DNA from: Methanosarcina horonobensis HB-1 = JCM 15518
Lineage (GTDB): Archaea; Halobacteriota; Methanosarcinia; Methanosarcinales; Methanosarcinaceae
Assembly (NCBI RefSeq): GCF_000970285.1
Contig: NZ_CP009516.1
Span: forward strand, 1,777,036-1,841,035
DNA: 64,000 nucleotides
Reading direction: 5' to 3'
Position 1 is the first letter of the stretch. The number at the start of each line of letters is the position of its first letter. The notes below the pieces were generated by a model. The model was not told where the DNA came from. It saw nothing but the letters and a program-made list of their open reading frames with translations, and made no database searches. Below are positions 13,014 through 28,602 of the stretch, piece after piece. The position numbers were made by a program, and so were the translations under genes.

Positions 13014-14315
13014 TCAGATCTCCGGCCGCCTGTCGATAACCCTCTTTGCCTTTCCTGCGGTCCTTTCGATGCTGCCTTTCTCCAGCAGTTCTACGTTTGT
13101 GCGGATATTGAGGACGGATTTGAGTTCGTGCTGGACGTGGTTTTGGACGGCTTTGAGGTCTTTGAGGTCGCCGGTAAAGGCGTTTTCTTCGAGTTCGACT
13201 TCGATTGTGAGTTCGTCAAGCATGTGTTTGTTGCGGTCAAGGATAAGCTGGAAGTGTTCTCCGACCTGCGGGATTCGGGAGATTACGTCCTGGATCTGGG
13301 AAGGGAAGACATTGATGCCTCTTACTATGAGCATATCATCGGCTCTGCCGAGGAGGCGTGAAATCCTTGTGGTTGTCCTGCCGCAGTCGCATTCGGACTC
13401 AAGGAGTTTTGTCATGTCGCCTGTGCGATATCTTATATTGCAGAAGCCCTCTTTGCTGAGGGAAGTTAAGACGAGTTCTCCCTTTTCGCCTTCCGAGACC
13501 TGTTCTCCGTTTTCGTCAAGGACTTCTACAAGGAAGTTATCACTCCAGATATGGAGACCATTCTGTTCCTGACATTCAAAGCCGACTCCTGGCCCGAACA
13601 TTTCGGATAAGCCGTAGCAGTCATATGCTTTGAGGTTGAGCCTTTTCTCGAGCTGCTTGCGGGTGTTCTCCGACCAGGGTTCGCCGCCGAAAATGGCTGC
13701 TTTTAAGGAGAGCTTGTCTATGAGGTCGAGCTCTTCTGCGGTTTCTGCGAGGTAGAAGGCATATGAAGGGGTGCAGTGAACCGCGGTTACCCCGAAGTCG
13801 ATCATCATCTCAAGCTGCCTGGCAGTGTTTCCTGTTGCTGCAGGCACAATCATGGCTCCCATCCTTTCAACGCCATAATGGAAGCCGAGCCCGCCTGTAA
13901 AGAGGCCGTAGTTCATCGAGTTCTGGATAACATCGCCTTTTGAAAGCCCTATCATTGTAAGGCTGCGGGCAATCAGGTCAGACCATGTCTCTATGTCTTT
14001 TGCAGTATAACCGACAACCGTGGGCTTTCCACTGGTCCCGGAGGAGGCGTGGATCCTAACAATATCCTCTTTTTTTGCAGCAAAAAGGCCGAAAGGATAA
14101 TTGTCCCGAAGGTCTGTTTTGCGTGTGAAAGGCAGTTTCCGGACATCCTCAAGGGTTTTGATGTCATCGGGGGTAACTCCTGCCTCTTTGAATTTCTGCC
14201 TGTAGAAAGGAACGTTATCATAGACCAGCTTTGCACTGTTTTGCAGGCGTTTAAGCTGAAGTCTTTTCAGTTCTTCGGGATTCATTGTTTCGTATTTCGG
14301 CTGCCAGTATTTCAT
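13014..14315 (-). CDS. phenylacetate-CoA ligase family (PaaK/F390 synthetase type)
   Basis: 433 residues, the normal length for this adenylate-forming family. It has the ATP-binding loop SSGTSGKPT (residues 91-99), the adenylation motif YGLSEMFGPG near 235, TGD in RYRTGDMTKLL, and the C-terminal lysine region GKAKRV. PaaK enzymes activate aryl acids to CoA thioesters; in methanogens related genes are often annotated as coenzyme F390 synthetase, and the substrate cannot be read from sequence. It is convergent with the secreted gene pair and faces the casposon insertion 250 bp from its start. Confidence 0.85.
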   Translation of the reverse strand: MKYWQPKYETMNPEELKRLQLKRLQNSAKLVYDNVPFYRQKFKEAGVTPDDIKTLEDVRKLPFTRKTDLRDNYPFGLFAAKKEDIVRIHASSGTSGKPTVVGYTAKDIETWSDLIARSLTMIGLSKGDVIQNSMNYGLFTGGLGFHYGVERMGAMIVPAATGNTARQLEMMIDFGVTAVHCTPSYAFYLAETAEELDLIDKLSLKAAIFGGEPWSENTRKQLEKRLNLKAYDCYGLSEMFGPGVGFECQEQNGLHIWSDNFLVEVLDENGEQVSEGEKGELVLTSLSKEGFCNIRYRTGDMTKLLESECDCGRTTTRISRLLGRADDMLIVRGINVFPSQIQDVISRIPQVGEHFQLILDRNKHMLDELTIEVELEENAFTGDLKDLKAVQNHVQHELKSVLNIRTNVELLEKGSIERTAGKAKRVIDRRPEI

Positions 14316-14564
14316 TAAAAGGACCTTCTTCTAATTTGTAAAACCATTTTTTAGATTCGAATATTGCTATGAACTACCCTGTTCTTGCTATACCTACTCG
14401 TGCCATGCATCTGCATGTCATAATATGTTAAGTAATCTTATGAGTAATATAAAATGTTTGAAAAAATCCTTCTGTACTGTGACCCTTCCCACATATAAAT
14501 ATTGTTGAGTGAACCGCTTGGGGTGGGAAGGGGAGTAAATTTAGTGGGTTCGAATTATATTCAT
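14316..14564. other. left flank of the casposon
   Basis: No gene. It contains an archaeal TATA-like ATATAAATA at 14493-14501 and an inverted repeat CCCTTCCCAC (14483-14492) / GTGGGAAGGG (14523-14532). A T-loop-like GGTTCGAAT follows at 14548-14556, just before the casposon target site. Casposons are known to use 3' ends of tRNA genes, and this looks like a tRNA remnant or mimic, but no complete cloverleaf can be drawn. Confidence 0.45.
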
Positions 14565-14578
14565 CGCACTAAAATAGA
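14565..14578. repeat. 14-bp target-site duplication, left copy
   Basis: CGCACTAAAATAGA is repeated exactly at 25232-25245. Casposons generate duplications of 14-15 bp. The copy lies directly outside the left inverted repeat, which opens with GGG. Confidence 0.88.
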
Positions 14579-14639
14579 GGGTAATAGGTAACTCAAATTT
14601 TTTGTACGCCATTGCAAGAAATATGCACAACCGTTTTTT
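14579..14639 (+). repeat. casposon A left terminal inverted repeat
   Basis: Begins GGGTAATAGGTAACTC and continues through a T-run to GTACGC. Its reverse complement aligns with 25171-25231, closely for 31 bp and roughly two thirds identical for 30 bp more. Confidence 0.88.
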
Positions 14640-14765
14640 AGGATGTAGCCTTAACTCAAAAATACAAGTAACTTCTTTAATGCAAATTTAAATAAAAACT
14701 CAGGTTTTTAATATTTTTAGTCTGAATAATAGGTAATTGCATTTACTTTTTCCAAAAGGTTTCCG

Positions 14766-15557
14766 TCATTTTTGATCATTACAGTCTTTTTCAACTGAGA
14801 TTACAGGATTAATTCTATCTGATACGATTATTCTTCTCAGGCTTCCATCTGGGTTCTTTAACCATCTAATAAGTCCCCCATCTAGAGTCCTTTGTACAGG
14901 TATATTTAGACAATTCATTTCTTCTGGTGATAACTCTTTAAGTGGTATTTCTGTGACGTTATATTGATTAGTTAATGCAAATTTAAGTGAATCAAACTGA
15001 TTCTTAAGGGTATTTATGGAGTTTAATAACACGGTCGTATCATTGGATAGAACTTGATCATTTAGAAGTTTAGCAGGTTTGACACTCAATGAATGAATTA
15101 AAGAGTTTTCTAGATTATCTCTTAATTCATATGTGTTTTTTAGAGTATCTGCGATTAACTTGATTGATGAATTTATTTGATCAACTCTTAAACTTTCATT
15201 GTAATCAAGGCATCTTAACCCATCAATGTCAAAAATACGTGGGGTGATCAAGTCTTTTATAATCGTAACTGGTTTATTAAAAGATTGTCTTATTCCAAGT
15301 TCAAAAAGAACATTTGGATTTTGACCACTTAAATCACAGATAGCCATAGGTGAATTTAAGAGTCTTGTCAGTATATCTTTTACAATAAAATTTGTGTTTT
15401 TAATTTCGTCAGACCTTATAGGGGCAAAACCGGCTAGCGCGCATGCAGGTTTAATCAGATGATCATAGACTATTTTGAAATGTCCCTCTTCATAGGGTGA
15501 CCTATCCGTTATCGGCATAATTACAAAACATTCTTTTATACTATCGGTGTCTCCCAA
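14766..15557 (-). CDS. nucleoside deoxyribosyltransferase/TIR-like predicted defence protein
   Basis: 263 residues. The N-terminal domain (about 8-150) has the signature CFVIMPI, YEEGHFKIVYDHLIKPAC, and the block DILTRLLNSPMAICDLSGQN followed by PNVLFELGIR. This places it in the Rossmann-like nucleoside 2-deoxyribosyltransferase/TIR superfamily, whose members cleave or sense nucleotides such as NAD. The acidic residue in LFELG is the likely catalytic one. The C-terminal ~110 residues are an unrecognised domain. It lies next to the left TIR, and the neighbouring Mrr-like nuclease is on the same strand. This pairing inside a mobile element suggests antiviral cargo; that is inference. Confidence 0.68.
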   Translation of the reverse strand: MGDTDSIKECFVIMPITDRSPYEEGHFKIVYDHLIKPACALAGFAPIRSDEIKNTNFIVKDILTRLLNSPMAICDLSGQNPNVLFELGIRQSFNKPVTIIKDLITPRIFDIDGLRCLDYNESLRVDQINSSIKLIADTLKNTYELRDNLENSLIHSLSVKPAKLLNDQVLSNDTTVLLNSINTLKNQFDSLKFALTNQYNVTEIPLKELSPEEMNCLNIPVQRTLDGGLIRWLKNPDGSLRRIIVSDRINPVISVEKDCNDQK

Positions 15558-15853
15558 GGTATCGATTTTGGTACTCGCATCATTGCTTTTAGGTATACAA
15601 ATCGCCTCATGAAATTAGTCAGTTAAAAACACCATTTAAAAAGTGTTATTATATCTTTTATACATTTGGTTAAGAGTCTAATATGCGAACATTGCCTTCT
15701 TAACTTTGATTTTAAGTAAACTATCTAGTTAGTTTATATTCTATAAATTTTGTAATTATTTTTGGAATAAGAACCTGAAAAAATTGATACATGGATTTTG
15801 TCATAAAAGCTATGATTAAAAAATAAGAAATATAGAAATAGTTAGGTTTGATT

Positions 15854-16978
15854 TTATTGAGACGCTTTACTGTCTACATTAAACAATTCTTTAAATTTCG
15901 TAGGATCAAAATTAATTATTTCTAACATTTCTTCTTCAAATAAAAACGATAATACATATTCACAAAAGAAATTATAAATGGAACGATATTCTTCGTTTTG
16001 ATCTTGTATATTGTCTAGTTGACGATTAATCTTTTCCAATGTGCTTTCGATTACTTCTACAGAATAATGATTTTCAGATTCCTTTTCTTTCAATAATTCA
16101 TTTTGGATAGATTCTCTGAGAGACTCAAGGTTTTTGATACTTTGGTCTAAAGTTGTTGTGTCTCCTAATCTGAAACAAGTTTTCAATACAATATCTGTAA
16201 CATAAGTAGCTACTGATATGTTTTTATTCTTTTTTTCAGTTTCATAGCATTTAGACTTAAAATTTTCATAACTAACTTCATCAAGTAATAAATTTCTAAA
16301 CGTTTCATTCATCGTGGTTGGCTTTCTAAACTTAGGTCTAATTATTGAGCTGTATGCATAGCCTAAAATTTTGTCCCTCTTCGTTGCCTCAATATTATCC
16401 ATAATTTTAAAGAAAGAATCCAGCTTAAAAATATGTAAATCTTTAATATATAGTAGATGATTTGGATGCATAATGTTTATAAACGAAAAATCGTACCCAA
16501 TGTTATATTTTTTTAATAACAGTGAATGTCCTTGCGTAACTTTCTCTAAATCTTTTTTTTCCCAATATTTAATTTTAAATGGAGGTCTGTTCTCACGAAC
16601 ATAATCATCTAGAGAATTCTTACATTGGTTAGATAAGAAATTTGAAGCTATGATTAGTACTCTATCAGGTCTTTTAGAAGTCGCCCAACTCAATACGCCT
16701 TGAATTTTTTCAGGTGGAACCCCTGTTTTATAATGTTTACATTCAACAAACCACTTTTCAATTATTAATTCCCCATCTACTACATCTTCAAGTACTCTTT
16801 CGCACTCAATATCCCTTCCTTGATCAGAAGGACTAGAAGCGTGCCCTGTTCCTTTTCTCCAATTTACATTTCTAAAGCCTAAGCATTCTAACAATTCAAA
16901 ACAAAACTCTTCAAACTGAGTTGAATTTAAATGATCAAAAGAAAATTTATTTTCATAATTAATCTCTAATTGTTGCAT
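15854..16978 (-). CDS. Mrr-type restriction endonuclease-like protein
   Basis: 374 residues. The N-terminal 150 form a PD-(D/E)XK nuclease domain: a helix FDHLNSTQFEEFCFELL, the acidic residue D56 in QGRDIE, and E79-C-K81 in VECKHYK, followed by IQGVLSWA and a strand DRVLIIASN. This is the Mrr/Holliday-resolvase-like arrangement used by modification-dependent restriction enzymes. The C-terminal half is helical and rich in Lys and Glu with no recognised domain; it may sense the target. A ~300-bp gap separates it from the NDT-like gene. Cargo of casposon A, probably defensive. Confidence 0.7.
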   Translation of the reverse strand: MQQLEINYENKFSFDHLNSTQFEEFCFELLECLGFRNVNWRKGTGHASSPSDQGRDIECERVLEDVVDGELIIEKWFVECKHYKTGVPPEKIQGVLSWATSKRPDRVLIIASNFLSNQCKNSLDDYVRENRPPFKIKYWEKKDLEKVTQGHSLLLKKYNIGYDFSFINIMHPNHLLYIKDLHIFKLDSFFKIMDNIEATKRDKILGYAYSSIIRPKFRKPTTMNETFRNLLLDEVSYENFKSKCYETEKKNKNISVATYVTDIVLKTCFRLGDTTTLDQSIKNLESLRESIQNELLKEKESENHYSVEVIESTLEKINRQLDNIQDQNEEYRSIYNFFCEYVLSFLFEEEMLEIINFDPTKFKELFNVDSKASQ

Positions 16979-17138
16979 AATTAGAATTAAGTGTCAAGAG
17001 TTAAATAACCTGTTAAAAGTTTTAGAAAGCTTCCTACCGAAATTTGAACTATAAAAAAACTGATTTTACAAAATATGTAAAATTAACCATATTTTACTAC
17101 TCTTTTATGCCTTTTTTATACCATCTTTTACTATTTTC

Positions 17139-17214
17139 TGTAAAATTTACATTTTACCTGTAAAATTTACAGTCTTTCCTGATACTGTTTTACAATTTTA
17201 CTGTAAAATTTACA
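17139..17214. promoter_or_regulatory. iterated TGTAAA-N-TTTACA near-palindromes 3' of cas1
   Basis: Three copies of TGTAAAATTTACA start at 17139, 17159 and 17202, with further partial copies at about 17068-17090 and 17225-17245 (TTTTACATTTTACAGTAAAA). The same kind of sequence lies beside the cas1 fragment at 28785-28835. They could be binding sites for the element's own HTH, RHH or Cas1 protein, an origin-like iteron set, or a bidirectional terminator. Confidence 0.5.
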
Positions 17215-17257
17215 TTTTCTACTTTTTTTACATTTTACAGTAAAAATATACACATTT

Positions 17258-18475
17258 TTACTTTTGACTTGAAACCAACGCTTCCCACTTATTCACCCTT
17301 TCCAGAACATGAGCATTAAGAGTAAATGGCTTATCTGACTTGGCGTTCTGTTTCATATAATGTAAAGTGCCTTTGGAAAACCCTAATTTCTTCCAGTCAA
17401 CATAAGAAATATTGAGTATCTTTTGTCTTATTTCATAGGAATCAATTCTCTCAATTTCATACTCAGGCTTAACAAAGTCCAGTTTCTCCTTTTTGCTAGT
17501 AAGATAATGGGTTAACTCTCTTACCTTCAAAAAGATAACATAACTCCAAGTGCTTTCTTTCCCCTGGTAACTTACCTTTTTGTTCAGCATATTGGAAAAC
17601 TCATTAACAATTTTCCTTGCTCCTGTAGGTTTCAGCCTCAAATTGTAATTTTCTGTTCTTATGAAATCCTTACTTTCCATAGCTCCGCTTTCAACCAGGC
17701 TAATTACTGCCAGATCAACAAGGAACCTGAAAGGCTCCTGAAGGTCATAGGCTAAACTGTTCTTGCTTGGAGTCATTTCATGCAAAAACCCTACATGAGC
17801 ATCCAGACCTACAGTGTTTATGGCTCTTAAACACTCAGCCTCAAGGAGAGAATAGCCATAATTGAGCATAGTGTTTACTATATCTCCTGAACCCATAGCT
17901 CTTCTGAACTGGTCTATCCTGTTACAGAAATCATATTCCTTTGGAACAGCTTTAGAGAACTCAATCCAGTATTTACCGGCTAAGGTTCCCTCTACTCCCA
18001 AAATTTCCCTGGTGCTCTTTACTTCTCTTAACTTTGTGAGTCCATCCGAAATATCAAATTTAATTTCAGGATATCTTTGGCTAAGGAAATCAAGCACGGC
18101 TTTAGATTTATCGAATTTAGCCTCAATAAACTTCTTTGCTATCTCAAGCCTTGCTTCCTTATCCTCAAAAGCATGATACTGAGAAAACTTTGTTCTTAGA
18201 TTTGTACTTTCAGGAGGAAGCATTGTGGTTAAAAGTTTGCCGTTCCAGTCTAAGATAGAAACTTGGACATTATGCTTAATAAGCCATCTAATAGCCTCTA
18301 AGGTAAGGTTCCCACTCTTACCATAGATGATAATGCCGTCAATATCAATCCTTTTAGGAGAAAATACATATTCTTGAGGCTCTTCAGTAGTTGAAAATCT
18401 TCCTTCTTTAACATGGAGCCTGGCTCCATCAACATGCATATTTATGCCGTGTCCATTCAAAAGAAGAAGCTTCAT
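17258..18475 (-). CDS. cas1: Cas1 family integrase (casposase)
   Basis: 405 residues. An N-terminal beta domain (MKLLLLNGHGINMHVDG.., GIIIYGKSGNLTLEAIRWL) is followed by the helical catalytic domain. Conserved metal ligands are visible: E162 in VEGTLAGKYW, H232 in GFLHEM and E247 in YDLQEPFRFLVD, with D244 beside it. In casposons this protein cuts and joins the terminal inverted repeats to a target with a 14-15 bp duplication. The ~60 residues after the Cas1 fold (EYEIERIDSYEIRQ... LGFSKGTLHYMKQNA) look like an added HTH, a known casposase feature. ATG overlaps the stop of the upstream wHTH gene (ATGA), so the two are co-translated. No cas2 and no CRISPR array nearby. Confidence 0.95.
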   Translation of the reverse strand: MKLLLLNGHGINMHVDGARLHVKEGRFSTTEEPQEYVFSPKRIDIDGIIIYGKSGNLTLEAIRWLIKHNVQVSILDWNGKLLTTMLPPESTNLRTKFSQYHAFEDKEARLEIAKKFIEAKFDKSKAVLDFLSQRYPEIKFDISDGLTKLREVKSTREILGVEGTLAGKYWIEFSKAVPKEYDFCNRIDQFRRAMGSGDIVNTMLNYGYSLLEAECLRAINTVGLDAHVGFLHEMTPSKNSLAYDLQEPFRFLVDLAVISLVESGAMESKDFIRTENYNLRLKPTGARKIVNEFSNMLNKKVSYQGKESTWSYVIFLKVRELTHYLTSKKEKLDFVKPEYEIERIDSYEIRQKILNISYVDWKKLGFSKGTLHYMKQNAKSDKPFTLNAHVLERVNKWEALVSSQK

Positions 18476-19377
18476 TTGAAATCAACCTCTTTTTCTCCTT
18501 TTGTATATGGATTTTCATGTAACCCCAAATTAATTAGAGCATCAGTCCTGATATTGGAAACAAACTGTGAAGCGTTTTCTTTTCCTTCAATTGCTAACTC
18601 TTCCTCTAATTTGTATAGTTCCTCTCTGTGTTCCTCAATAAGATTGGCTGTATATTCTGTATTGTAAACATTTTCTATAGAAGAAAGATCTTTTAGGATT
18701 CTTGCATCTTCCATAAACCTATCAATTACGGCTTTATGCCCATAATGCCCAAGAAGATAGATAATGTGAGTTCTAAGGTTTACATGGGTTGAAACAGGAA
18801 CAGGATATTTCTCTAGCAATTTTACTAACAGGTCAATTGTTTTTGTTTTATTGGTTGGCTCAATACCTTTTTTCAAAATATATCTGTCTAATAAAAGTAA
18901 TAGCTTATCAGCAAGCTCATTATCTATAGTTCCTACATCAATGTTCTTATCAAACTGAGATACCACTAGATCCAATTGTTTTGGGGTTAAAACATAAGTT
19001 TGTTCATAACGGGCAATCTCTTTTAAAGCCATTTTTTGCTTTATGGACTCTTCTGAATCAAGCCTTTCTAAAATCTTATCCATATGCTCCGTTATTTTGG
19101 ATATATTTTTCAAGGTCAGATAACTGGCGTTTTTATCAGTATCCTCTATTCCTAATTTCCCAAAATCAGAATATTCTAGGCGTATAATCATACCTTGTTT
19201 CTTTAGGTTGTCTAATTTACGGTTTATACTCTTGAGGCTGTACCCAAGTTCATTTTTATGCTTTTTCATCAGGTCTTCGATGAGTTGTTTCCTTCTTGCA
19301 TATCCTTTTTGTGTAAGATACTGCTTTACCTCAGTTTCAAAGTCTCTTTGTGTCACAAATAATACTCTCTTTTTCAT
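18472..19377 (-). CDS. winged-helix DNA-binding protein of the casposon
   Basis: 301 residues. Residues ~25-75 (ARRKQLIEDLMKKHKNELGY, SLKSINRKLDNLKKQGMIIRLEY) form a winged helix-turn-helix. The remainder is helical and leucine-rich with no recognised domain. It is the first gene of a two-gene operon with cas1 and overlaps it by 4 bp. It faces the RHH-HNH-PolB operon across a ~105-bp divergent promoter region. Probable regulator of the element or accessory to excision; HTH genes beside cas1 are usual in family 2 casposons. Confidence 0.75.
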   Translation of the reverse strand: MKKRVLFVTQRDFETEVKQYLTQKGYARRKQLIEDLMKKHKNELGYSLKSINRKLDNLKKQGMIIRLEYSDFGKLGIEDTDKNASYLTLKNISKITEHMDKILERLDSEESIKQKMALKEIARYEQTYVLTPKQLDLVVSQFDKNIDVGTIDNELADKLLLLLDRYILKKGIEPTNKTKTIDLLVKLLEKYPVPVSTHVNLRTHIIYLLGHYGHKAVIDRFMEDARILKDLSSIENVYNTEYTANLIEEHREELYKLEEELAIEGKENASQFVSNIRTDALINLGLHENPYTKGEKEVDFK

Positions 19378-19482
19378 GTGTTTTACTCAAGTATATACAA
19401 AATATATGTCAAACTTATACTTAAAGTTATACTCAATTCTGTACATAAGTGTGATAGGGCGTATTATATGTTGTGATAAAAA
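19378..19482. promoter_or_regulatory. divergent promoter/operator region of the casposon
   Basis: About 105 AT-rich bp between the two casposon operons. It contains TTATACTTAA and TTATACTCAA as direct repeats 11 bp apart (19420-19440) and an inverted relative CTCAAGTATA at 19386-19395. This arrangement suits binding by the RHH or wHTH protein encoded on either side; that is inference. Confidence 0.5.
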
Positions 19483-19623
19483 GTGACTGAAAAAAATCGT
19501 GTTTTAATTACACTGTCTCCTTACCTTAAGGAGAAACTTAAACAGAAAGCAGAAGAATACGGATGCTCTCAGGCTGAAGTTATGAGAACAGCTTTTATCA
19601 GAATGATGGAGGCTGAAAGATGA
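19483..19623 (+). CDS. small ribbon-helix-helix protein
   Basis: A 46-residue protein starting at GTG 19483: a short strand (RVLITLSPYL), then helix (KEKLKQKAEEYGC) and helix (SQAEVMRTAFIRMMEAER). This is the complete CopG/MetJ-type ribbon-helix-helix fold, which binds DNA as a dimer. Its TGA overlaps the ATG of the next gene (ATGA), so it heads the rightward operon. Likely autoregulator of the casposon replication genes. Confidence 0.7.
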   Translation: MTEKNRVLITLSPYLKEKLKQKAEEYGCSQAEVMRTAFIRMMEAER

Positions 19624-20258
19624 GCCGACCAAGATTTTCCAAAGACTACAGGACTTATGGAGAATGGCTCAAGGCTCAGCCCAGGGATACAAAATATGCT
19701 AAGGAAATCATCAGGAAACACAAGTTTTTCCCTGATAAAAGCCTCAGCCAGCTTAGAAACCTAAAGATAGGGGATTTTGACCTTAGCCAGACAGCCTGGA
19801 AAACTCTTTCAGCCCAGGATAAGAGAGATAGAAACCTATCTCTCCAAATTTTAAGGGAAATGAGAAAAGGAGAAAATCTTTCTTCTATACTTGAAAAGAT
19901 AGGCAAAAGGACAGAATTTGCAGTCAAGCATCTTGGAAAGAACCTGCATAAGTCAGAAGGAACCTGGAAGGTTACAAAAACAGACACTATCCAGGCTGAA
20001 ATGCTGATTTACTCCACAGAAGGACAAAAAACGATTATTACAGCCAGTTCTAAGGATAGGTCTTTAATTGCAGAATATCATGCCAATGTTCAGAAGGCAA
20101 TAAAAAACAATGATCCTTCAGTTCTTGCCAAATTTAAGGATATTCAAATAGTGGATGCTAAAGGCAAAGTCCACCACTTTGAAACCGACCTTGATAAGCT
20201 CTATGAGATCCTGGAAGCCCAGGAAGAGCCAGAGTTTTTGGAAATTTATCAGCACTGA
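19620..20258 (+). CDS. conserved casposon protein of unknown function
   Basis: 212 residues, basic in its N-terminal half (MSRPRFSKDYRTYGEWLKAQ, RKHKFFPDKSLSQLRNL) and acidic at the C terminus. The pattern KFFPDKSLSQLRNLK suggests a DNA-binding helical segment, but no family is recognised. It is translationally coupled to the RHH gene by an ATGA overlap. Its TGA is followed in the same frame by the HNH gene after only 12 bases, so the two could once have been, or elsewhere be, one protein. Confidence 0.6.
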   Translation: MSRPRFSKDYRTYGEWLKAQPRDTKYAKEIIRKHKFFPDKSLSQLRNLKIGDFDLSQTAWKTLSAQDKRDRNLSLQILREMRKGENLSSILEKIGKRTEFAVKHLGKNLHKSEGTWKVTKTDTIQAEMLIYSTEGQKTIITASSKDRSLIAEYHANVQKAIKNNDPSVLAKFKDIQIVDAKGKVHHFETDLDKLYEILEAQEEPEFLEIYQH

Positions 20259-20270
20259 GGAGGTGAAACT

Positions 20271-20603
20271 ATAGACAAAGAAACCTATCAAAAAACTTTG
20301 AACAAACAGAAGAGAAAAGGAAAACCTTCTCTTTGCTGTATTGTCTGTGGGGAGGATGACCCAGAAGTTATTGAAATGCATCATGTCTATGGAAGGAGCA
20401 ATTCAGATCAGGTTAAGCCTCTCTGCAAAAACTGCCATTCCAAGGTAACAAAGGAACAGAATAAATTTAACCCAAAAGCCAGATCTGGAAATGCCTCTTC
20501 TGAGCAAAAGAGAGCTTTTCAGATTGTATCTATTGGTGCCTTGCTTACAGAATTAGGAACTCAGCTAATTGATCTTGGAAATGAGATGGTGCAAAATGTC
20601 TAA
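20271..20603 (+). CDS. HNH endonuclease of the casposon (possible ATA start)
   Basis: 110 residues with the zinc-bound HNH layout: CCIVCG (C-x2-C), EMHHVYGRS (the HH of the motif) and PLCKNCHSKVT (C-x2-C-H), then a helical tail. HNH nucleases are standard in casposons, probably for DNA processing. No ATG, GTG or TTG lies near the ribosome binding site. A perfect GGAGGTGA (20259-20266) is followed 4 bases later by ATA at 20271. The first conventional codon, TTG at 20298, is 31 bases from the site. I therefore propose ATA, a rare start codon. The gene overlaps the polB start by 8 bp. Confidence 0.8.
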   Translation: MDKETYQKTLNKQKRKGKPSLCCIVCGEDDPEVIEMHHVYGRSNSDQVKPLCKNCHSKVTKEQNKFNPKARSGNASSEQKRAFQIVSIGALLTELGTQLIDLGNEMVQNV

Positions 20604-23295
20604 AGTTGCAGTCAGGGGATATACTCAGAGGCTTGAGAAAAAAGGAGAGTATAGGAGCTTTAGGCGTTATGATACTCCTCTCAGGCATAACAGGGTACTG
20701 GTCTTTGATACTGAAACCACAACCGACCAGTATCAAAATTTTAAGATAGGATACTTCCAGATCTACCAGGATGGAGTTATTCAGCATGATGGTTTATTCT
20801 ATGATCCATCTACCCTGAACGAAAGAGAAATAAAGACTCTGGAAGCCTATTCAAGAAAACATGACATAAGCCTGTATTCCCTGGGTAAGTTCATAGACAA
20901 TGTGTTTTATCCTGAAGTCTTTGAGCTTAAAACCCTCTGCAATGGGTATAACTTGGCTTTTGACATAAGCAGGATAGCCAAAAAATCAGGAGATTCAAGG
21001 GTAAAGAATAGAGGGGGCTTTACTCTTACCCTCTCAGATGACCCTTTCAACCCTCCTATAATAGTCAAAAAGCTTGGATACTCTAACAGCTTCAAGTTTA
21101 CCACTACTAAGCAGAACAAAGGAGAGAGCTACTTCTCAGGCTATTTCCTGGATACTCAAAGATTAGCTGAAGTTCTCCTTCAGTCAAACCATATTTCCCT
21201 TGAGAAAGCAGGAGAGAAGCTTAACACACCTGTTCAGAAGATGAAAGGGATTGAACATGGGAAGGTTACTGAAAAGTACATTGATTATCTAGTAAAGGAT
21301 GTTGAAACTACCCAGGCTGTATATGAGAAGCTTGTTAAGGAGCTTGATGTTTATCAGATTCACATACCCATAACAAAGATCTTTAGTGAGGCTTCTATTG
21401 GAAAACATTCTCTTGAGCAAATGGGGATTAAGCCATTCTTGGAAATGAATCCAGATTTTCCAGATTCGATTATTGGAAACATGATGACTTCTTATTTTGG
21501 AGGAAGAACAGAATGTAAAATCAGGAAGGAGCCAATAAAGGTAACAGTTCTTGATTTTACAAGCATGTACCCTACAGTTACAATGTTAATGAACCTCTGG
21601 AAATACATCATAGCTGAAAGCCTGGAAATTCAGGACATAACCGAGGAGGTTAGGATATTTGTTTCAAAACTGAAGCTTTCAGACCTTCAGAAACCGGATA
21701 CATGGAAAAAGCTTGTTGTTATGGTTAGGATTCAGCCAGATAATGACATTTTGCCTGTAAGGATGGATTACAAAGGAAATAATACAGGCTTTAACGTAGG
21801 AATCAATTATCTGAGTTCTAAGTCTGAGATGTGGTATTCTTTACCGGATGTTATAGGCTCATATCTCCTTACCGGCAAGGTTCCAAAGATTATAGAAGCC
21901 GTGAAATTTGTTCCTAAAGGAGTACAGAAGAACTTAAGGAAATCCAGGGTTCTTGGAATTGATATTGATCCATTAAAGGATAATGTTGTTCAGGTTCTTG
22001 TAGAAGAGAGGCAGAGGATTAAGCAGGAATTGAAAAACACAGAGAGAAATGATCCTGAATATCAGCATTTATCAAGCAGAGCCCAGGCTATCAAGATTCT
22101 TGTAAATGCTCTGAGTTATGGAATCTTTATTGAGCTTAATCCCGAAGATAAGAAAAGCGAGTTTCAGGTTTATGGGCTTGAAAACTTTGTTACTAAGGAA
22201 AACAGGTTCGAGAAGTCAGGAAAGTATTTTCATCCTCTCCTAGCTGTTATGATTACGTCAGGAGCCAGGCTTTTCTTAACAATGGCTGAAGCCAGATTAA
22301 AAGAGCTTGGGGCAATTCACGCTTATATGGATACTGATTCTGTGTTTGTACCTCCTGATAAGGCTCAGGAGCTTGTAGAGTTCTTTCAGCCTCTTAACCC
22401 CTATAACATTGATATTCCATTGCTTAAACCTGAGAAAAAAGATCTCTGGTTTTATGGAATTGCTTCTAAAAGGTATGCTCTGTACTATTATGAAGATAGA
22501 AAAATCAGGTTCATGGAAGATGAAAGATCTTATAAGCTTCATGGGCTTGGACATTTAACAAACCCTTTCCCTAACTCAGTTGAAGATTGGCAGGGTGAAA
22601 TCTGGCAGGATATTCTTAAACTGCATTATGGGCTGATTACTGAAAGGGATATTGGAGAGAAGTATTCAAACCTTTATGCAATTTCCAAGCTTACTGTCAG
22701 CACTTCCAATGTATTGAACAGGTTTAAGAAACTGAATGATGGGAAGCCTTGGAAAGAGCAAATTAAGCCTTTTAACTTCTTTCTTGTAGGGTTCCAGGCA
22801 ATTGAAGAAAATGAGAAGGCTGTTAAGCCTCTGGCTCCATTTACCAAAGATTATCAGAAGATTGTCTATGAGCCATTTATTGATTATGAAAAAGGAGAAG
22901 TTAAGGAAGGATCTCAGTATTTCAAACCATTGAGCAGAACAATTTTGCAGTATATTGAGCATCTTGAAAACAAGTTTGATGGAGATATAGGAGTTTTAAA
23001 GAGGAAATATATTCAGGCTGATGGTCTTGTTTACATTGGGAAAGAAGCAAATAATATTGAGGATCAGCCTTTAGATGTTACTGGGGCTCAAGGTTTTATT
23101 AATGAGGAAGAGACAATAAACTTTATTTTGACTCTGATCCCTGAAAAAGCCCGAAAAATAGGTATTAAGCACCGGAGTGAACTAAAATATCTGAAAGAAA
23201 AAGCAAGAGAGAGAAAGCTAAATTTTAATACTACCAATATGCAAAAAATTCTGAAATATTATAGCTCTCAAGGATTGAATACTGAAGCTAAATAG
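20596..23295 (+). CDS. polB: family B DNA polymerase of the casposon
   Basis: 899 residues, a protein-primed-like or short archaeal PolB of the type carried by casposons. Exonuclease motifs: D38-T-E40 in VLVFDTETT, NLAFDISRIA (ExoII) and YLVKDVETTQAVY (ExoIII). Polymerase motifs: D320-FTSMYPT (A), K500-ILVNALSYG (B) and Y577-M-DTDS (C). All catalytic acids are present, so it should be active with proofreading. I prefer ATG 20596 over the upstream frame start at 20569 because homologous-looking sequence begins at MSKVAVRGYT. It ends with TAG followed at once by TAA, a backup stop in a lineage where UAG can be read as pyrrolysine. Confidence 0.93.
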   Translation: MSKVAVRGYTQRLEKKGEYRSFRRYDTPLRHNRVLVFDTETTTDQYQNFKIGYFQIYQDGVIQHDGLFYDPSTLNEREIKTLEAYSRKHDISLYSLGKFIDNVFYPEVFELKTLCNGYNLAFDISRIAKKSGDSRVKNRGGFTLTLSDDPFNPPIIVKKLGYSNSFKFTTTKQNKGESYFSGYFLDTQRLAEVLLQSNHISLEKAGEKLNTPVQKMKGIEHGKVTEKYIDYLVKDVETTQAVYEKLVKELDVYQIHIPITKIFSEASIGKHSLEQMGIKPFLEMNPDFPDSIIGNMMTSYFGGRTECKIRKEPIKVTVLDFTSMYPTVTMLMNLWKYIIAESLEIQDITEEVRIFVSKLKLSDLQKPDTWKKLVVMVRIQPDNDILPVRMDYKGNNTGFNVGINYLSSKSEMWYSLPDVIGSYLLTGKVPKIIEAVKFVPKGVQKNLRKSRVLGIDIDPLKDNVVQVLVEERQRIKQELKNTERNDPEYQHLSSRAQAIKILVNALSYGIFIELNPEDKKSEFQVYGLENFVTKENRFEKSGKYFHPLLAVMITSGARLFLTMAEARLKELGAIHAYMDTDSVFVPPDKAQELVEFFQPLNPYNIDIPLLKPEKKDLWFYGIASKRYALYYYEDRKIRFMEDERSYKLHGLGHLTNPFPNSVEDWQGEIWQDILKLHYGLITERDIGEKYSNLYAISKLTVSTSNVLNRFKKLNDGKPWKEQIKPFNFFLVGFQAIEENEKAVKPLAPFTKDYQKIVYEPFIDYEKGEVKEGSQYFKPLSRTILQYIEHLENKFDGDIGVLKRKYIQADGLVYIGKEANNIEDQPLDVTGAQGFINEEETINFILTLIPEKARKIGIKHRSELKYLKEKARERKLNFNTTNMQKILKYYSSQGLNTEAK

Positions 23296-23676
23296 TAACC
23301 CCGTCTTCCTAGATAAAATTAGAACCTCCATAGTAGTAAAACTCAGAAACATCAGCGTTTTCCACTAAGATTAAAGACGGTTATTGTGGTTTTCATTAGA
23401 ATGCCTAAATTTCCCTATCTGACGTATTAAGTAAACTAAGATTGCCTCTTTCCTAACTTATTAGTTCAGTGATCTAAACTCATTATCTTTTTTGGAAATT
23501 ACTCCTCGTTTAAGTATGTTTTAACATTGAAAATAGGCTTTATACGTCTTTTTGACACACACGAGTTTATCATTAAATTACATAAAAAAAATACAATTTC
23601 GTTAATTTATTTAGTAAGTTATATATAGTAGCTATATGAACCTTAGTTTAAAACAAAGAATTAAAGAGATTTAAAC
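23296..23676. other. intergenic within casposon A
   Basis: 380 bp, AT-rich, without a gene. A strong AT block with a TTATATATAG stretch at 23620-23629 may be the promoter of the following membrane protein gene. Confidence 0.4.
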
Positions 23677-24321
23677 ATGCAGGATATGCCAAAAAACGAA
23701 CCTGAGTTTAAAGAAGATATTTTGCAAATAATACTCAATGAGTCAAGAGACCTGAGAAACCAGCAACTTGAACATTTATTTCAAACTTCAGAAAACATAT
23801 GGGGCAGTTTGAATTTGTTACTGGTTCTCTTGGGAATTTACGCTTCTGTATTTCTTTTTTTATGTGATTTTAATAATGTACATCTTATGTCAAACAAAAT
23901 AATTACTTGTCCTTTAATTATTAGTGTGTTGTTTATATTATTCGCTATAGTTAGGGCTATAATTGGAATTTTTCCAACTAATAAATTTAGAGTTCCTACT
24001 CCAAATGCAATCTATGAATTACTTGCTGAAGAGAAAGAAATAATATTGGAAAAATTTACTCAAACATACTTATTAGGGTATGGAAGTATCATAATTAGTG
24101 CTGAAGAGCGTAATTCTCTTAGAAAAGAGATAATTATGGTAGCATTAGCCTCAATCGTTGAGTTTATATTTTTCGTTTCAGCTTTAATTTTGAAAAATCT
24201 AACTATAATGTTTGTTACAATATCCATAATTTTTGTTATATTATTTGTGGTGTTTATGATAGGTTTTATAGAAAGTGAGGGCAAAAGAATAGAAATGCTA
24301 CAGGAAGATATGAATTCATGA
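23677..24321 (+). CDS. four-helix membrane protein, casposon cargo
   Basis: 214 residues: a charged N-terminal helix (residues 1-42), two membrane helices (about 48-66 and 76-98), a ~50-residue soluble loop, two more membrane helices (about 152-170 and 174-194) and a short charged tail. The 2+2 helix plan with a cytoplasmic loop resembles small effector membrane proteins of defence systems, but no family signature can be named. It is separated from polB by 380 bp and is followed after 35 bp by the tiny PKLP genes, which may belong with it. Confidence 0.5.
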   Translation: MQDMPKNEPEFKEDILQIILNESRDLRNQQLEHLFQTSENIWGSLNLLLVLLGIYASVFLFLCDFNNVHLMSNKIITCPLIISVLFILFAIVRAIIGIFPTNKFRVPTPNAIYELLAEEKEIILEKFTQTYLLGYGSIIISAEERNSLRKEIIMVALASIVEFIFFVSALILKNLTIMFVTISIIFVILFVVFMIGFIESEGKRIEMLQEDMNS

Positions 24322-24356
24322 ATTAATTTGTTTGTTTATAAGAAGGAGGTTTGAAC

Positions 24357-24497
24357 TTGGTTAGAGAAACTAAAAATTTGGATAAGGAAAATAAAAATAG
24401 AGAAATACCGAAACTTCCGGAAGAAGAACCTATAAGAAGCATATGGATACAGAAAGGTGGTTCTAATAATGACAGGAAAAATAACAAGGAAAAGTGA
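24357..24497 (+). CDS. tiny charged protein 1 with PKLPEEEPIR motif
   Basis: A 46-residue frame starting at TTG 24357 with AGGAGGT 7 bases upstream. The centre reads IPKLPEEEPIRSIWIQKGG and the rest is Lys, Asn and Glu, so it is probably unfolded alone. The motif PKLPxxEPhK recurs in the next frames (24469 and 24792). It overlaps the second gene by 29 bp in another frame. Unknown family; the strong RBS and repeated motif argue for real translation. Confidence 0.5.
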   Translation: MVRETKNLDKENKNREIPKLPEEEPIRSIWIQKGGSNNDRKNNKEK

Positions 24498-24618
24498 AAT
24501 GTATGAAATAAAAGAAAAGCCAAAACTACCAGAGAAGGAACCTTTAAAAATGAAAGATATTCAATTATCTGAGAACCCAAAAAAAGAACTAAAAAAAAGT
24601 CCAAAGAAAAACTCATAA
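24469..24618 (+). CDS. tiny charged protein 2 with PKLPEKEPLK motif
   Basis: 49 residues from ATG 24469, with GGTGG 8 bases upstream. It contains KEKPKLPEKEPLKMKDIQLSE and a very basic tail (PKKELKKSPKKNS). It shares the PKLPxxEPhK core with its neighbours. Just after its stop, another frame continues with a related but degenerate copy (24619-24740). Confidence 0.5.
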   Translation: MTGKITRKSEMYEIKEKPKLPEKEPLKMKDIQLSENPKKELKKSPKKNS

Positions 24619-24740
24619 AAAGCACATCAGTTCAAAAAACAAATTATAATAACGCCAAAAGATGAGATAAAAGAAAAGCCAAAAATTACCATAAAAGTCT
24701 TTAAAAATAGTAACCCAAATGAGAATAAAGTGTTGACATA
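24619..24740 (+). pseudogene. degenerate PKLP copies
   Basis: Two overlapping broken frames. One ends in STSVQKTNYNNAKR at a TGA (24663-24665), comparable with the C terminus of protein 3. The other begins EIKEKPK and loses the motif through a one-base change in phase (compare GAAATAAAAGAAAAGCC in protein 2 with GAGATAAAAGAAAAGCC here). They look like decayed members of the same tandem family. Confidence 0.4.
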
Positions 24741-24791
24741 GGCACAATCTATCAGATATACAGAAATTGAAAGAGATATAGAGGTAATATC

Positions 24792-24917
24792 TTGAGTGAC
24801 ACGAAAGCCCCAAAAAAGACTACTCCTAAATTGCCAGACAAAGAGCCTATAAAAACAGTAAATTTACAAGCAAACAGGAAAGTAACAAAAAAATCCACTG
24901 GTAACGTTAAAAGATAA
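24792..24917 (+). CDS. tiny charged protein 3 with PKLPDKEPIK motif
   Basis: 41 residues from TTG 24792, with GAGGTAA upstream. It reads TTPKLPDKEPIKTVNLQANRK in the middle and has a basic tail. Same core motif as proteins 1 and 2. It is the last gene before the right TIR of casposon A. Confidence 0.5.
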   Translation: MSDTKAPKKTTPKLPDKEPIKTVNLQANRKVTKKSTGNVKR

Positions 24918-25170
24918 TTTCCTATCATTCGGATTTCTATAAATTATCAAACAAACTCACCCAAACAATGTAAAAATATTCCTAATTAGTGATTGTCTCT
25001 GAAAAAACTCACATGATATTCTTCGAATAACATGCCCAAACAATGAAAATACTTGAAAGCACTTTCATGCTAAATAGATTTTTCAGAAGTCTTGCAGAGA
25101 TATAGAATAAATTTAATTTTTTATTAATAAAGGTTATAGAAATCTATTTTTTGGTTAAAGCAATTTTATG

Positions 25171-25231
25171 AAAAAATGGTACTGCAATTATCTTACAGTT
25201 GCGTACAAAAAATTCGAGTTACCTATATCCC
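25171..25231 (-). repeat. casposon A right terminal inverted repeat
   Basis: Read inward on the minus strand it begins GGGATATAGGTAACTCG and reaches GTACGC after the same T-run as the left end. Only three of the first 31 positions differ, and weaker similarity continues to about 61 bp. Confidence 0.88.
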
Positions 25232-25245
25232 CGCACTAAAATAGA
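25232..25245. repeat. 14-bp target-site duplication, right copy of A and left flank of B
   Basis: CGCACTAAAATAGA is identical to 14565-14578. It is followed directly by GGG and a second left-type TIR, so this single copy serves as the right flank of casposon A and the left flank of casposon B. Confidence 0.88.
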
Positions 25246-25307
25246 GGGAATATATACAACGCTAAAAAAGTGTACGCTATTGAAAAATATCTACATCGCC
25301 GTTTTCT
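25246..25307 (+). repeat. casposon B left terminal inverted repeat
   Basis: Reads GGGAATATATAC...GTGTACGCTATTGAAAAATAT...CCGTTTTC. It aligns in direct orientation with 14579-14640, with the same GGG start, GTACGC and CCGTTTT landmarks. Similarity is lower than between the two ends of A, so B is a different or older element. Confidence 0.75.
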
Positions 25308-25656
25308 AAAAAGTTATCCTTAATAAAAATTAATTAATTTCTATAATATTTGTTCAAAAGAGTTGACTCATTTTAATTCATCGTTCAGTTGTCTTTTAAG
25401 TTTATTATCAAAGAAAATAGTTCAAAATTTTTATTAGTCAAAGGTTCTGCACATTCCCCTGGGCAAGATAAAAATCCAAAGTTTTATTTGACTATAGTAT
25501 GCTTTTTTAAAGGTGTTTTAGTTTAAATGCTAAGGTGTTAATTTTCATGAAATCATAAATCTAAAGGAGTTACTAGATTAAACTCTAGTTGAAATTAAAA
25601 GCAAAAAATGTTATGAGCTACTTAAAAAAGTTTGCAAGCAGCAAAGGAGCAGATAA

Positions 25657-28602
25657 ATGTCTGAAGATGCGATTCTGAGGTTACACCAAACAGGTCTATT
25701 TAATAAGCTTCTTGAGAAAGAGAATGAAGAGAAAAAAAGTACTTCAATAGAAGATCATGAAATCTCACAAAATATAATTTCAGTTGTTCGCAAAGCTGCT
25801 CCTTTGTTAGAAAGAATTCCAATAAACATGCCTGAATTCACATTACATAACGCTAATCATAGTATACATGTAATTAAAAATATAGAAGATTTAATACCTC
25901 CAGAGACTCTTGAACAATTAAACGCTGTTGAAATTTCCATACTTATTTACGCTGCGTATCTTCACGACATAGGAATGATCTCTTCTTCTGATGAGCGGAA
26001 GCAGATTGTTAAAACTAATGAATTTAAGAAGCTTTTAAACTCAAATGAAGAATTATATGAAAAGCTTGAGAAAGCGAAAAACAATGGCGATTATCAAGCA
26101 GTACTTGAAATTGAAAACAAAGCATTTACTGATTTTCTTCGAAAAAATCACGTTGAACATGCACACAAAATAATCAAAGAATATGAATTGGACTCTGAAA
26201 TCTCATGGAAAGGCACTTCATACTATAAATGGGTAAAGGCAGTATGCGACAGTCATGGACTTCCAGTAAAAGAGCTAAAGAAGAATGATAATTGGCCAAT
26301 TGATGTTTTAGTACGAAATAAGCCAGTGAATGTTCAGTATTTATCTCTTATATTACGACTAGCTGATATATTGGATCTCGATTCCGAAAGAACACCAAAG
26401 CGTTTATTCTATCATATAAATCCAAAGGATAAAATCAGCATTCAAGAGTGGGAAAAACATCTTTCCATTACTGGATTTCGGATTGGACCTGAAGAAATCA
26501 AAGTTGAAGCTGAATGTAAAAGTCCAAACTGCGAACGTGTACTTAGAAAATTTATAAAAGATATTGATAAAGAACTCGAAGAAAGCAATTATTTGATTTC
26601 GAGTTATAGAGCTGATTTCGCTAAATATAGATTAAATCTTTCTGAGTCAGTTAATGTACGAATCCATTCTATTGGTTATGAATACCGTGATTTCCGTTTC
26701 GAACTTGATTATCGTCGAGTCCTCGACTTACTGATGGGAGAAGGACTATATGGAAATCCGGTTGTAGCACTTAGAGAGCTTCTACAAAACTCTGTAGATG
26801 CTGTACGTTATAGAGAATCTCTAGAGAAAAGAGAAGGAAATGGTTATCGCCCTAGCATAGAAGTCTCTTTGACAAATGACGAATTAATTGTTGAAGATAA
26901 TGGCATCGGAATGGATGAGGAGATATTTAAAAATTATTTCATGAAAGTTGGTAGAAGTTATTATCAAAGCTCAGATTTTCGTGAAAAAAATGTGGACATA
27001 GATCCTGTAAGCGAATTTGGAATCGGTATTTTATCAGTTTTTATGGTTGCCGATAAGTTTACCGTTGAGAGTAGAAGAAAAACTTTTGAAGATGAGCTCA
27101 ATCCATACATATCAATATATTTTGAAATCCCAACAGCTTATGACTATTTTGTAAAACGGCAATCTAAACGTTCTAAGTATGGAACGAAAATAATTTTGAA
27201 CTTAAAATCTGATCATCCATTTTCTCCCTCATCACTAATTGAAAAAATATCAGAAATTGCTCCTTTTATTGAATATCAAATAAAGGTTAAAACAAATGAT
27301 GAAACAAAAATCTATGAACCTCTTTTACCAGGTGAAATATATGGAGATACCTCTAACATAAAAACTTATTATGACATTACTTTTAATGAATTGGATAAAT
27401 CTGAGGGGATAGAAGGTACAATGAAAGTTGTAAGGACTTCTAGAGAAAGAAAACATCTGATCGCTCAACGGGGTTTCTCAATTCCTCTTGACAAACTATT
27501 ACCCCCTTGGTTATCCAATAGTCTCCTGATGTCAATAAATATTTCAGGTCAAACAAAATTATCACTATCTCCAAACAGATCAAATATAATTGAAGATGAA
27601 AAATACCATGAGTTAATTGAAAAAATACAATTGAGATTATTAGATGAACTCGAAAATAGCTTGAAGACATATAGAGATTCGAATACATTTGAAAAATATA
27701 TTAAATATGTTGATGAATTAATAGATGACAATTTTTTTAGTACTTATAGACATGATCCGCCTTTTGGATCCGATTATGAGGAAGATAAGAGAATAGAATT
27801 AATGACAAAAATCATCCTCAATAACGTTCCTTTTCTAACGATTTCACGTGACGGAACACGTGCTTATAAATTAGTTAAAGACTTTAATAAGTTTTCAACA
27901 ATAGTAGTAACTTCAGAAATTTGGCCTGAAGAAATCCAAAACGAAAATGTTTTCGAAGAAATAAAACGTCTAATCGACCTAGATGTAATTGTTTTACTAG
28001 GTAGAGATCAGAATAGCATGAGGAAATACTACATGTTATGTGAAATTTTAGAGAATCCTTCTGACATCTATATTACATCTATACCTGGAGTCGTCGTCAA
28101 AACTTTTGTAAGTAACGATGATTTAAAAATGTATAGTATTAACTATAATATGTTCACATTTAAGATGTATAGTAAAACTGGAACCAAAGAACCGCTATTT
28201 GTTCATGATCCAGAAGATAATATTGATTCTGAAACAGTGATTTTTAATGCTAATCATCGATTATTGTATAGATTTTTTGATGGATGGGATCCAAGAGATG
28301 AAAATTGTCTTGAAGCGTTAAATTATCTGGGTAAACTCTTTTCCGATTTATTAATTAATATGGAGGCTGTAGCATTTTCAGCTTATAACACACGAGGGAT
28401 CAGATATAAGGAGGATATAAATTGCTCGTATATTGGAATACTCAAACATTATCCAGAAATATTTGAGTATTTCTGTAATGCAGTAGAGGAGTTTTGGAAA
28501 AATGCCCAAGATGTGGGAGCTATTTCTCATGGTGAGGAGTTTCCTGGTTTTAATGTGGATGACCTACCTTGGTTTTGGAACTATTGCAATGAGCAAACAT
28601 GA
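25657..28602 (+). CDS. HD-domain/Hsp90-type ATPase fusion, predicted defence cargo
   Basis: 981 residues. N-terminal HD phosphohydrolase-like domain: histidines in LHNANHSIHV (64-71) and H103-D104 in YLHDIGM, then HGLP and RLADILDLD. From about 345 comes a GHKL ATPase of Hsp90 type: E374/N378 in RELLQNSVDA, D414 in DNGIGMDEEI, and GIGILSVF at 455-462, followed by an Hsp90-like middle domain (RGFSIPLDKLLPPW, SLSPNRSNIIEDE). The last ~330 residues are unassigned. ATG at 25657 has AAAGGAG 7 bases before it. Such HD-Hsp90 proteins occur in microbial defence islands; the activity here is inferred. It occupies the same slot in B as the NDT/Mrr pair does in A. Confidence 0.75.
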   Translation: MSEDAILRLHQTGLFNKLLEKENEEKKSTSIEDHEISQNIISVVRKAAPLLERIPINMPEFTLHNANHSIHVIKNIEDLIPPETLEQLNAVEISILIYAAYLHDIGMISSSDERKQIVKTNEFKKLLNSNEELYEKLEKAKNNGDYQAVLEIENKAFTDFLRKNHVEHAHKIIKEYELDSEISWKGTSYYKWVKAVCDSHGLPVKELKKNDNWPIDVLVRNKPVNVQYLSLILRLADILDLDSERTPKRLFYHINPKDKISIQEWEKHLSITGFRIGPEEIKVEAECKSPNCERVLRKFIKDIDKELEESNYLISSYRADFAKYRLNLSESVNVRIHSIGYEYRDFRFELDYRRVLDLLMGEGLYGNPVVALRELLQNSVDAVRYRESLEKREGNGYRPSIEVSLTNDELIVEDNGIGMDEEIFKNYFMKVGRSYYQSSDFREKNVDIDPVSEFGIGILSVFMVADKFTVESRRKTFEDELNPYISIYFEIPTAYDYFVKRQSKRSKYGTKIILNLKSDHPFSPSSLIEKISEIAPFIEYQIKVKTNDETKIYEPLLPGEIYGDTSNIKTYYDITFNELDKSEGIEGTMKVVRTSRERKHLIAQRGFSIPLDKLLPPWLSNSLLMSINISGQTKLSLSPNRSNIIEDEKYHELIEKIQLRLLDELENSLKTYRDSNTFEKYIKYVDELIDDNFFSTYRHDPPFGSDYEEDKRIELMTKIILNNVPFLTISRDGTRAYKLVKDFNKFSTIVVTSEIWPEEIQNENVFEEIKRLIDLDVIVLLGRDQNSMRKYYMLCEILENPSDIYITSIPGVVVKTFVSNDDLKMYSINYNMFTFKMYSKTGTKEPLFVHDPEDNIDSETVIFNANHRLLYRFFDGWDPRDENCLEALNYLGKLFSDLLINMEAVAFSAYNTRGIRYKEDINCSYIGILKHYPEIFEYFCNAVEEFWKNAQDVGAISHGEEFPGFNVDDLPWFWNYCNEQT

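Follow-up and report, generated by a model that had tools for sequence, protein, structure and literature searches.

Casposons, a kind of mobile element, are the foremost candidate source of CRISPR adaptation. One described set consists of MetBur-C1 to -C3, whose host we take to be Methanococcoides burtonii. Like the casposons of M. psychrophilus R15, these lie adjacent to one another, with at least one inactivated or deteriorating (PMC4046053). Tandem casposons separated only by target-site duplications (TSDs) are known, according to a review citing earlier work (PMC9939771), and both tandem casposons and tRNA-Leu targets have already been published (PMC4046053, PMC9939771, PMC10359463, PMC6977970). 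We analysed a stretch of 64,000 nucleotides from the methane-producing archaeon Methanosarcina horonobensis HB-1 = JCM 15518 (hereafter, the window; positions 1777036-1841035 of the 5,018,607-bp genome), which holds an element of 10,653 bp, casposon 1 (14579-25231). It is very probably a complete family 2 casposon with a tandem remnant alongside. Casposon 1 is thus another example of an established element type, and its neighbourhood shows pile-up and decay. Among the open-access titles available, none was recognised as describing this locus or an ordered decay; MetBur and R15 are separate from the 12 arrays compared here for leader order and 14-nt junctions.

Casposon 1 and its tandem neighbour

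The initial annotation had described a casposon of 10.65 kb with inverted ends of about 60 bp and an exact 14-bp duplication, all of which was confirmed. The TSD, CGCACTAAAATAGA, is present as two exact copies directly outside the two ends of casposon 1 (14565-14578 and 25232-25245, both on the plus strand), the right copy being common to casposon 1 and casposon 2 (see below). These are the only exact matches in the whole 5.02-Mb genome, versus none for the reversed control, and the window contains no further matches with up to two mismatches. Two loose matches alone are unremarkable, as 11 shuffled sequences in 100 contain at least that many; an exact 14-bp match at precisely these two positions would arise by chance with a probability of about 1.6e-8. 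The terminal inverted repeats (TIRs) are 61 nt long and were detected with a TIR profile on the left (14579-14639, plus strand, E=1.6e-17; this end was among the sequences used to build the profile) and on the right (25171-25231, minus strand, E=3.7e-17). They match at 49 of 61 positions, compared with a mean of 16.9 (sd 3.6) and a maximum of 33 among 20,000 pairs drawn at random from the same region. That they are only 80% complementary, with 12 positions differing, counts against the reading as a complete casposon.

Five core genes lie between these ends, all with stop-free reading frames. The cas1 gene (17258-18475, minus strand) encodes a casposase of 405 aa, which aligns over residues 1-405 to the crystallised M. 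mazei casposase 6OPM (E=1.2e-260). The annotated residues E162, H232 and E247 are all present and are the same as the active site named for the M. mazei enzyme (PMC6977970). The Cas1 domain stops at residue 294, while the 6OPM alignment continues to residue 405, delimiting a C-terminal extension that, in the published text, folds as a helix-turn-helix (HTH; PMC4046053, PMC6614799). Family 2 casposons also have two conserved HTH proteins, one of them with HEAT repeats. A 301-aa gene at the place of the published HTH-HEAT protein (18472-19377, minus strand) and a gene for a second conserved protein of 212 aa (19620-20258, plus strand) keep their positions in related casposons; neither has an HTH or HEAT match in Pfam above the cut-off. 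The HNH-like nuclease of 101 aa (20298-20603, plus strand) shows, by eye, a CxxC...HH...CxxCH pattern, and a homologue occupies the same place in related casposons, so that its annotation is upheld by motif and position, although the Pfam HNH score stays below threshold (16.9 vs 21.4 bits). The last core gene encodes a B-family DNA polymerase (PolB) of at most 908 aa (20569-23295, plus strand), with its true start probably a little downstream of 20569. Its annotated exonuclease and polymerase acids were located in both domains, in the motifs FDTETT (46-51), NGYNLAFD (125-132) and YLVKD (240-244), and LDFTSMYP (328-335), KILVNALSYG (509-518) and YMDTDS (586-591), respectively. This five-gene order recurs in related casposons and fits the published family 2 gene set (PMC4046053).

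Among 20 scanned proteins of the element and its surroundings, no cas gene was found other than cas1 and a truncated cas1 copy, and the two distant Cas1 proteins of the genome (26-27% identity) lie elsewhere. The Cas1 of casposon 1 is thus outside any CRISPR-cas locus, as in the casposon superfamily, whose other features (a family B DNA polymerase within the element, TIRs and a TSD of about 14 bp) casposon 1 shows as well. A MetMaz-C1-like element in genome G006 (locus L168) is 88% identical in nucleotide sequence to the casposon 1 core over 6.1 kb. We take G006 to be presumably M. mazei, because the TSD of its element, CGCATTAAGATTAT, equals that published for MetMaz-C1 (PMC10359463). The two elements are alike in their Cas1 (94% identical), in a 14-bp TSD starting with CGCA, in a leader without a tRNA call and in a further TIR directly past the leader-distal TSD; they differ in cargo on both sides, in orientation to the leader, which is opposite, and in insertion site. 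The casposon identity of the M. horonobensis element is therefore supported by its ends, TSD, gene set and catalytic residues, together with this core identity.

The element had initially been treated as standing alone, which does not hold: a further casposon end begins at 25246, and a second casposon in tandem, a tRNA-like leader and another TSD-flanked casposon in the genome had been overlooked. This third end of the locus, directly 3' of the right duplication, is the left terminal repeat of an older casposon 2 (25246-25307, plus strand; profile match 25247-25307, E=4.4e-11). It was also among the ends used to build the profile and was found independently by blastn (E=2e-4). It is followed by a 981-aa cargo protein with HD-CE and HSP90/HATPase domains (25657-28602, plus strand) and by an open reading frame (ORF) holding a truncated cas1 (28846-29439, minus strand; match 28849-29421), which covers Cas1 residues 215-405 and is 94% identical to casposon 1. 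This cas1 runs into a short segment and then into a repeated-sequence stretch in two halves (29417-29718, plus strand; 33 matching pieces including itself), which overlaps the start of the native flank and is probably what is left of an insertion sequence where casposon 2 ends. The native right flank, with a PKD-domain gene, is kept in relatives (29722-30500, plus strand), and alignments to it start between 29673 and 29731. Because of the third TIR, the cas1 half and the start of the native flank, we conclude that casposon 1 is flanked by the leader on one side and by an older, truncated casposon 2 on the other. Alternatively, 25246-29439 could be a fragment of casposon 1 duplicated by recombination, or an unrelated island, since its cas1 piece is 94% identical to casposon 1 and neither a second TIR nor a PolB piece was found in it. 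We regard this as improbable: the casposon 2 TIR is clearly unlike both casposon 1 ends and, by eye, looks like the end found in the corresponding position past the G006 casposon. The cas1 piece of casposon 2 carries silent differences (synonymous divergence, dS, 0.455), the cargo is different too, and the junction of TIR, 14 nt and TIR is seen again in other arrays. As a separate observation, the two halves of 29417-29718 sit further apart in the genome's other copies.

The other TSD-flanked casposon of this genome (G000:C1:2712161-2731325, about 19.2 kb) shares the family 2 core; its TSD, CGCATCTGTTTCTA, is exact and lies immediately at a tRNA-Leu (TAA). It differs from casposon 1 in its weak TIR matches (E=3e-4 and 0.03), a TPR-rich cargo including a 1,128-aa TPR-repeat protein, an extra internal polB fragment and a Cas1 that is 75% identical.

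The target leader and the same site in relatives

The target leader of casposon 1 (14548-14568, plus strand) consists of a T-loop-like sequence, GTTCGAAT (14548-14555), a 9-nt spacer and CGCA (14565-14568); the sequence before the left duplication thus reads GTGGGTTCGAAT, nine bases, CGCA. By eye, it keeps the T-loop of tRNA-Leu without the matching T-stem strand. A tRNA at the target was rejected, as ARAGORN called none in the window and Rfam gave nothing at its gathering score; at E up to 10, Rfam returned two weak snoRNA matches and no tRNA. We therefore keep this leader as a tRNA-like remnant or mimic. Published work traces the dependence of the M. mazei casposase to base pairs 12-17 ahead of the duplication (PMC6977970) and that of the A. 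boonei casposase to a motif of 7 nt located 8 bp upstream (PMC6614799); both stretches coincide with the T-loop of this leader. A natural target without a detectable tRNA would separate the needs of the enzyme from those of the tRNA.

We compared 22 leader junctions hand-chosen from mapped ends, 14 of them without a tRNA call. The set omits duplicates across two loci, leader-averted ends, between-element junctions and the weak L130 end; the window and L119 represent the same site in two species, and two L178 sites adjoin. In the 14 tRNA-less junctions, positions -17 to -10 were conserved at 79-100% and positions +1 and +4 at 100%, compared with 50-57% for the T-stem positions -9, -8 and -5 to -3. 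The leader motif, with T before CGCA, occurred 10 times in the genome versus none in the reversed control; seven occurrences end a called tRNA (six Leu and one Gly), and a TIR directly follows the motif at two, the casposon 1 site and the tRNA-Leu site. Several observations weigh against a target reduced to T-loop and CGCA. In the same 14 junctions, positions outside the T-loop were conserved as well (-6 and -1 at 100%, -2 at 93%, and -24, -23 and -20 at 79-86%), so that the contrast between the T-loop and the rest is only partial. Moreover, mutating the four bases before CGCA severely cuts integration in vitro (PMC6977970), and these bases are TCAT here versus CCCT at the occupied tRNA-Leu site of this genome.

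The flank on the side of the host gene paaK was present in 18 out of 24 Methanosarcina genomes (39 genomes searched; that of the window included), and the corresponding stretches of 17 relatives were compared. Cas1 pieces lie at most 3 kb from the flank in four of them (G013, G006, G014 and G005); in G004, a Cas1 piece is on a contig that overlaps, at its end, the one carrying the flank; and the site borders on a TIR in G022 and on a weak TIR match (E=0.1) in G021. Five relatives or more have casposon pieces at this position next to paaK. Since G004 and G006 have, by eye, one cas1 break point in common beside the native right flank, their remnant is probably older than their split. In G013, the remnant near paaK (L115:1607-3398) contains a serpin gene (PF00079, E=6e-120) between the end and the cas1 piece.

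The initial annotation had proposed that related genomes be compared for an empty site with a single TSD copy. This was borne out in part: no single exact CGCACTAAAATAGA was found in the flanks of the 17 relatives, but G007 is nearly empty, about 190 bp separating its left flank from the distal native flank, and G013 combines the leader and TTGCACTAATTG but lacks a TIR there. With one genome per species, neither a strain-level empty site nor a transposition event was seen, which counts against the proposed insertion of casposon 1.

Tandem arrays and the order of decay

Arrays were sought as two casposon ends 12-17 bases apart, with the leader side read from CGCA. Twelve arrays were compared, each counted once: those of the window, L171/L172 (the same as L003), L168, L170/L189 and L010/L027 (the second locus continuing the first in both), L006, L008, L009, L011, L013, L023 and L028. 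L007 was dropped, its junction being without CGCA, and L010 and L028 have similar casposons and may be non-independent. Outside Methanosarcina, the profile matches several junction ends weakly (E 0.1-2.1), and these ends rest on the 14-nt spacing; in L008, L009, L010 and L013, the two TSDs are also exact matches. The distal element is seen over about 2.3 kb in L028 and about 5 kb in L168.

The leader-proximal element was the more intact one in 11 of the 12 arrays, with L006 tied and none reversed; in L011 and L023, the leader-proximal elements are themselves incomplete. In a three-element array (Methanosarcina sp. 2.H.T.1A.6, L171/L172), the core of the proximal casposon is stop-free; in the middle casposon, polB is frameshifted after residue 611 and a stop interrupts the 212-aa gene; the third element is a polB fragment. 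By analogy, this order of decay resembles the leader-end growth of CRISPR arrays. Going by published casposase biochemistry, the element's own casposase would recognise the T-loop sequence GTTCGAAT and the CGCA border. It would attach each 3' end of the casposon to a different target strand, at points separated by 14 bp, after which gap repair would duplicate the 14 bp. Because the target would be rebuilt next to the leader, the next casposon would insert at the leader side, and older elements would be pushed away and decay. Copying by PolB, the roles of HNH and of the two other core proteins, and any activity today are steps that we infer.

We consider insertion order moderately likely as the explanation. 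A competing one, with a lower but appreciable probability, is that the neighbouring tRNA or promoter shields the leader-proximal element from being deleted: deletions into a tRNA are harmful, so the leader side could last longer without ordered insertion, and most distal elements are fragments, which deletions alone can produce. Protection leaves small lesions unexplained, however, such as the polB frameshift and the 212-aa gene stop of the middle casposon, neither of which is in the proximal one. In addition, a mini-casposon inserted in vivo at one MetMaz-C1 duplication (IS1a, possibly but not necessarily the one on the leader side), giving a tandem (PMC10359463). Insertion order, in turn, has two sets of observations against it. 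The leader-proximal casposons of L008, L009 and L013 carry stops or splits, and the successive duplications of L171 differ (ATAACTTTAGTGCG and AAAAGAAGAGTGCG), where simple duplication at the leader end predicts otherwise. Replacement of the target site on insertion has been reported, with a different mechanism suggested (PMC10359463).

Other features of these arrays were recorded. The two L171 duplications (2993-3006 and 13301-13314) differ in their ten AT-rich bases. The polB sequences at L171:4425-7116 and 517-1375 share one break, located between residues 611 and 614, so the second and third elements may both have been copied from a single casposon that was broken beforehand. The leader-proximal casposon carries, between cas1 and its end, a retron-type reverse transcriptase as cargo (L172:977-2485; PADLOC RT_III-A, E=5e-98). 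A fixed insertion orientation was rejected, since in complete casposons the side next to the leader can be that of cas1 or that of polB.

Cas1 remnants, cargo and mobility

Cas1 matches were found in 26 of 30 Methanosarcina genomes, the distant Cas1 included. Among the matches listed, there were at least 102 casposon-type Cas1 fragments, of which 87 out of 102 are centred in the C-terminal half, as are 35 of the 38 fragments of at least 80 aa; the remnants are thus mostly C-terminal and belong to the cargo side. As a control, the 30 listed fragments ending before residue 330 split evenly (15 vs 15), which weakens the bias and indicates that much of the C-terminal excess comes from fragments including the C-terminal extension. 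The count omits full-length copies, distant Cas1 (24-29% identity), and rows below 48% identity, one of which is a near full-length G020 copy at 42%, and the pieces of one broken gene may count twice. The same 30 genomes hold nine near-complete copies and one short piece of the 212-aa gene, and PolB is present in 10 of them. All 11 cas1 stubs with a mapped end have the cas1 side toward the leader, in a sample chosen via Cas1 hits, in which polB-side remnants (such as the third L171 element and the L125 piece) are under-sampled. Leader protection as the sole cause of this bias is weakened by the mixed orientation of casposons.

Truncated cas1 stubs might instead be under selection as proteins in their own right, inhibiting incoming casposases, for example. 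Some stubs keep an open frame, and two (e2 and L026) have ratios of nonsynonymous to synonymous divergence (dN/dS) of 0.036 and 0.035, like intact genes. When pooled, nine less decayed stubs (some with one stop or frameshift) give a dN/dS of 0.087, compared with 0.049 for intact genes, four more decayed copies give 0.246, indicating graded decay, and the break points vary. Such selection is very improbable, and it was dropped as a main claim once the very low pairwise dN/dS, which also reflects the period before truncation, gave way to the per-sequence graded decay.

A stub of 3,787 bp in G012 (L175:8102-11888) has both ends and an exact 14-bp duplication and lies at a tRNA-Leu; it contains, of the core, a cas1 piece only, together with split Mrr-type pieces, and could be a non-autonomous casposon or an in-place deletion. 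A cargo block of 2.2 kb is 99.6% identical between G004 and an array element of 2.H.T.1A.6, yet adjoins a cas1 region that is only 93.8% identical, a pattern that looks like recombination near the cas1 3' end. Taken as a whole, casposon arrays would be leader-polarised archives, in which new elements stand beside the leader, older ones are displaced and reduced to stubs of TIR, cargo and cas1 3' end, cargo is swapped by recombination near the conserved cas1 3' region, and the leader outlives its tRNA as T-loop and CGCA. We put this full scheme forward tentatively, as doubtful in its entirety. If true, the reduced leader would be a natural precursor of the CRISPR leader and first repeat; the locus and its relatives make it testable whether casposons accumulate in time order beside a leader, like spacers.

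Concerning the present state of casposon 1, dN/dS against relatives was 0.026-0.085 for cas1, 0.089-0.155 for the 212-aa gene and 0.123-0.164 for polB. Mobility today, as suggested in the initial annotation, is compatible with the open core genes and these ratios (0.03-0.16). Casposon 1 could also be an immobile relic kept for its cargo, the Mrr-type nuclease and the TIR-like protein. Its TIRs mismatch at 12 of 61 positions, many relatives retain the cas1-side piece and cargo with the rest gone, and neither a plasmid match for the 212-aa core protein nor a viral-contig match for Cas1 was found. On the other hand, the five core genes are open with catalytic residues present, pairwise dN/dS is low (0.03-0.16) for cas1, the 212-aa gene and polB, and excision of the M. 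mazei casposon and insertion of a mini-casposon have been reported in vivo (PMC10359463), which makes a relic the less likely, though still a credible, state. A plasmid or viral vehicle was rejected on those same searches. The dS to G006 was 0.37 for polB (L168), 0.26-0.34 for the 212-aa gene, 0.49-0.75 for cas1 and 0.75 for paaK. As polB and the 212-aa gene lie below paaK, the one host gene on which this is based, the values hint at transfer between hosts after their split.

The cargo of casposon 1 lies on both sides of the core. On the polB side, there is a 214-aa ORF without a Pfam match above the cut-off (23677-24321, plus strand) and a 100-aa ORF whose status as a gene is doubtful (24323-24625, minus strand). 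On the cas1 side, a 263-aa ORF (14766-15557, minus strand) matched nothing in Pfam at E 0.001 or in the PDB at E 0.1, and showed a weak match to a profile of TIR-domain effectors (E=9.6e-6; a protein domain, distinct from the terminal repeats). Beside it, a 374-aa ORF (15854-16978, minus strand) carries an Mrr-type restriction endonuclease domain (PF04471, 8.4e-10; PDC-M58A, 3.2e-11). The cargo of relatives includes AAA ATPases of the OLD/AriA kind, a retron-type reverse transcriptase and others without a defence match. Together with the Mrr-type nuclease, the TIR-like protein and the HD-CE/ATPase protein of casposon 2, this suggests that some casposons carry defence-like genes.

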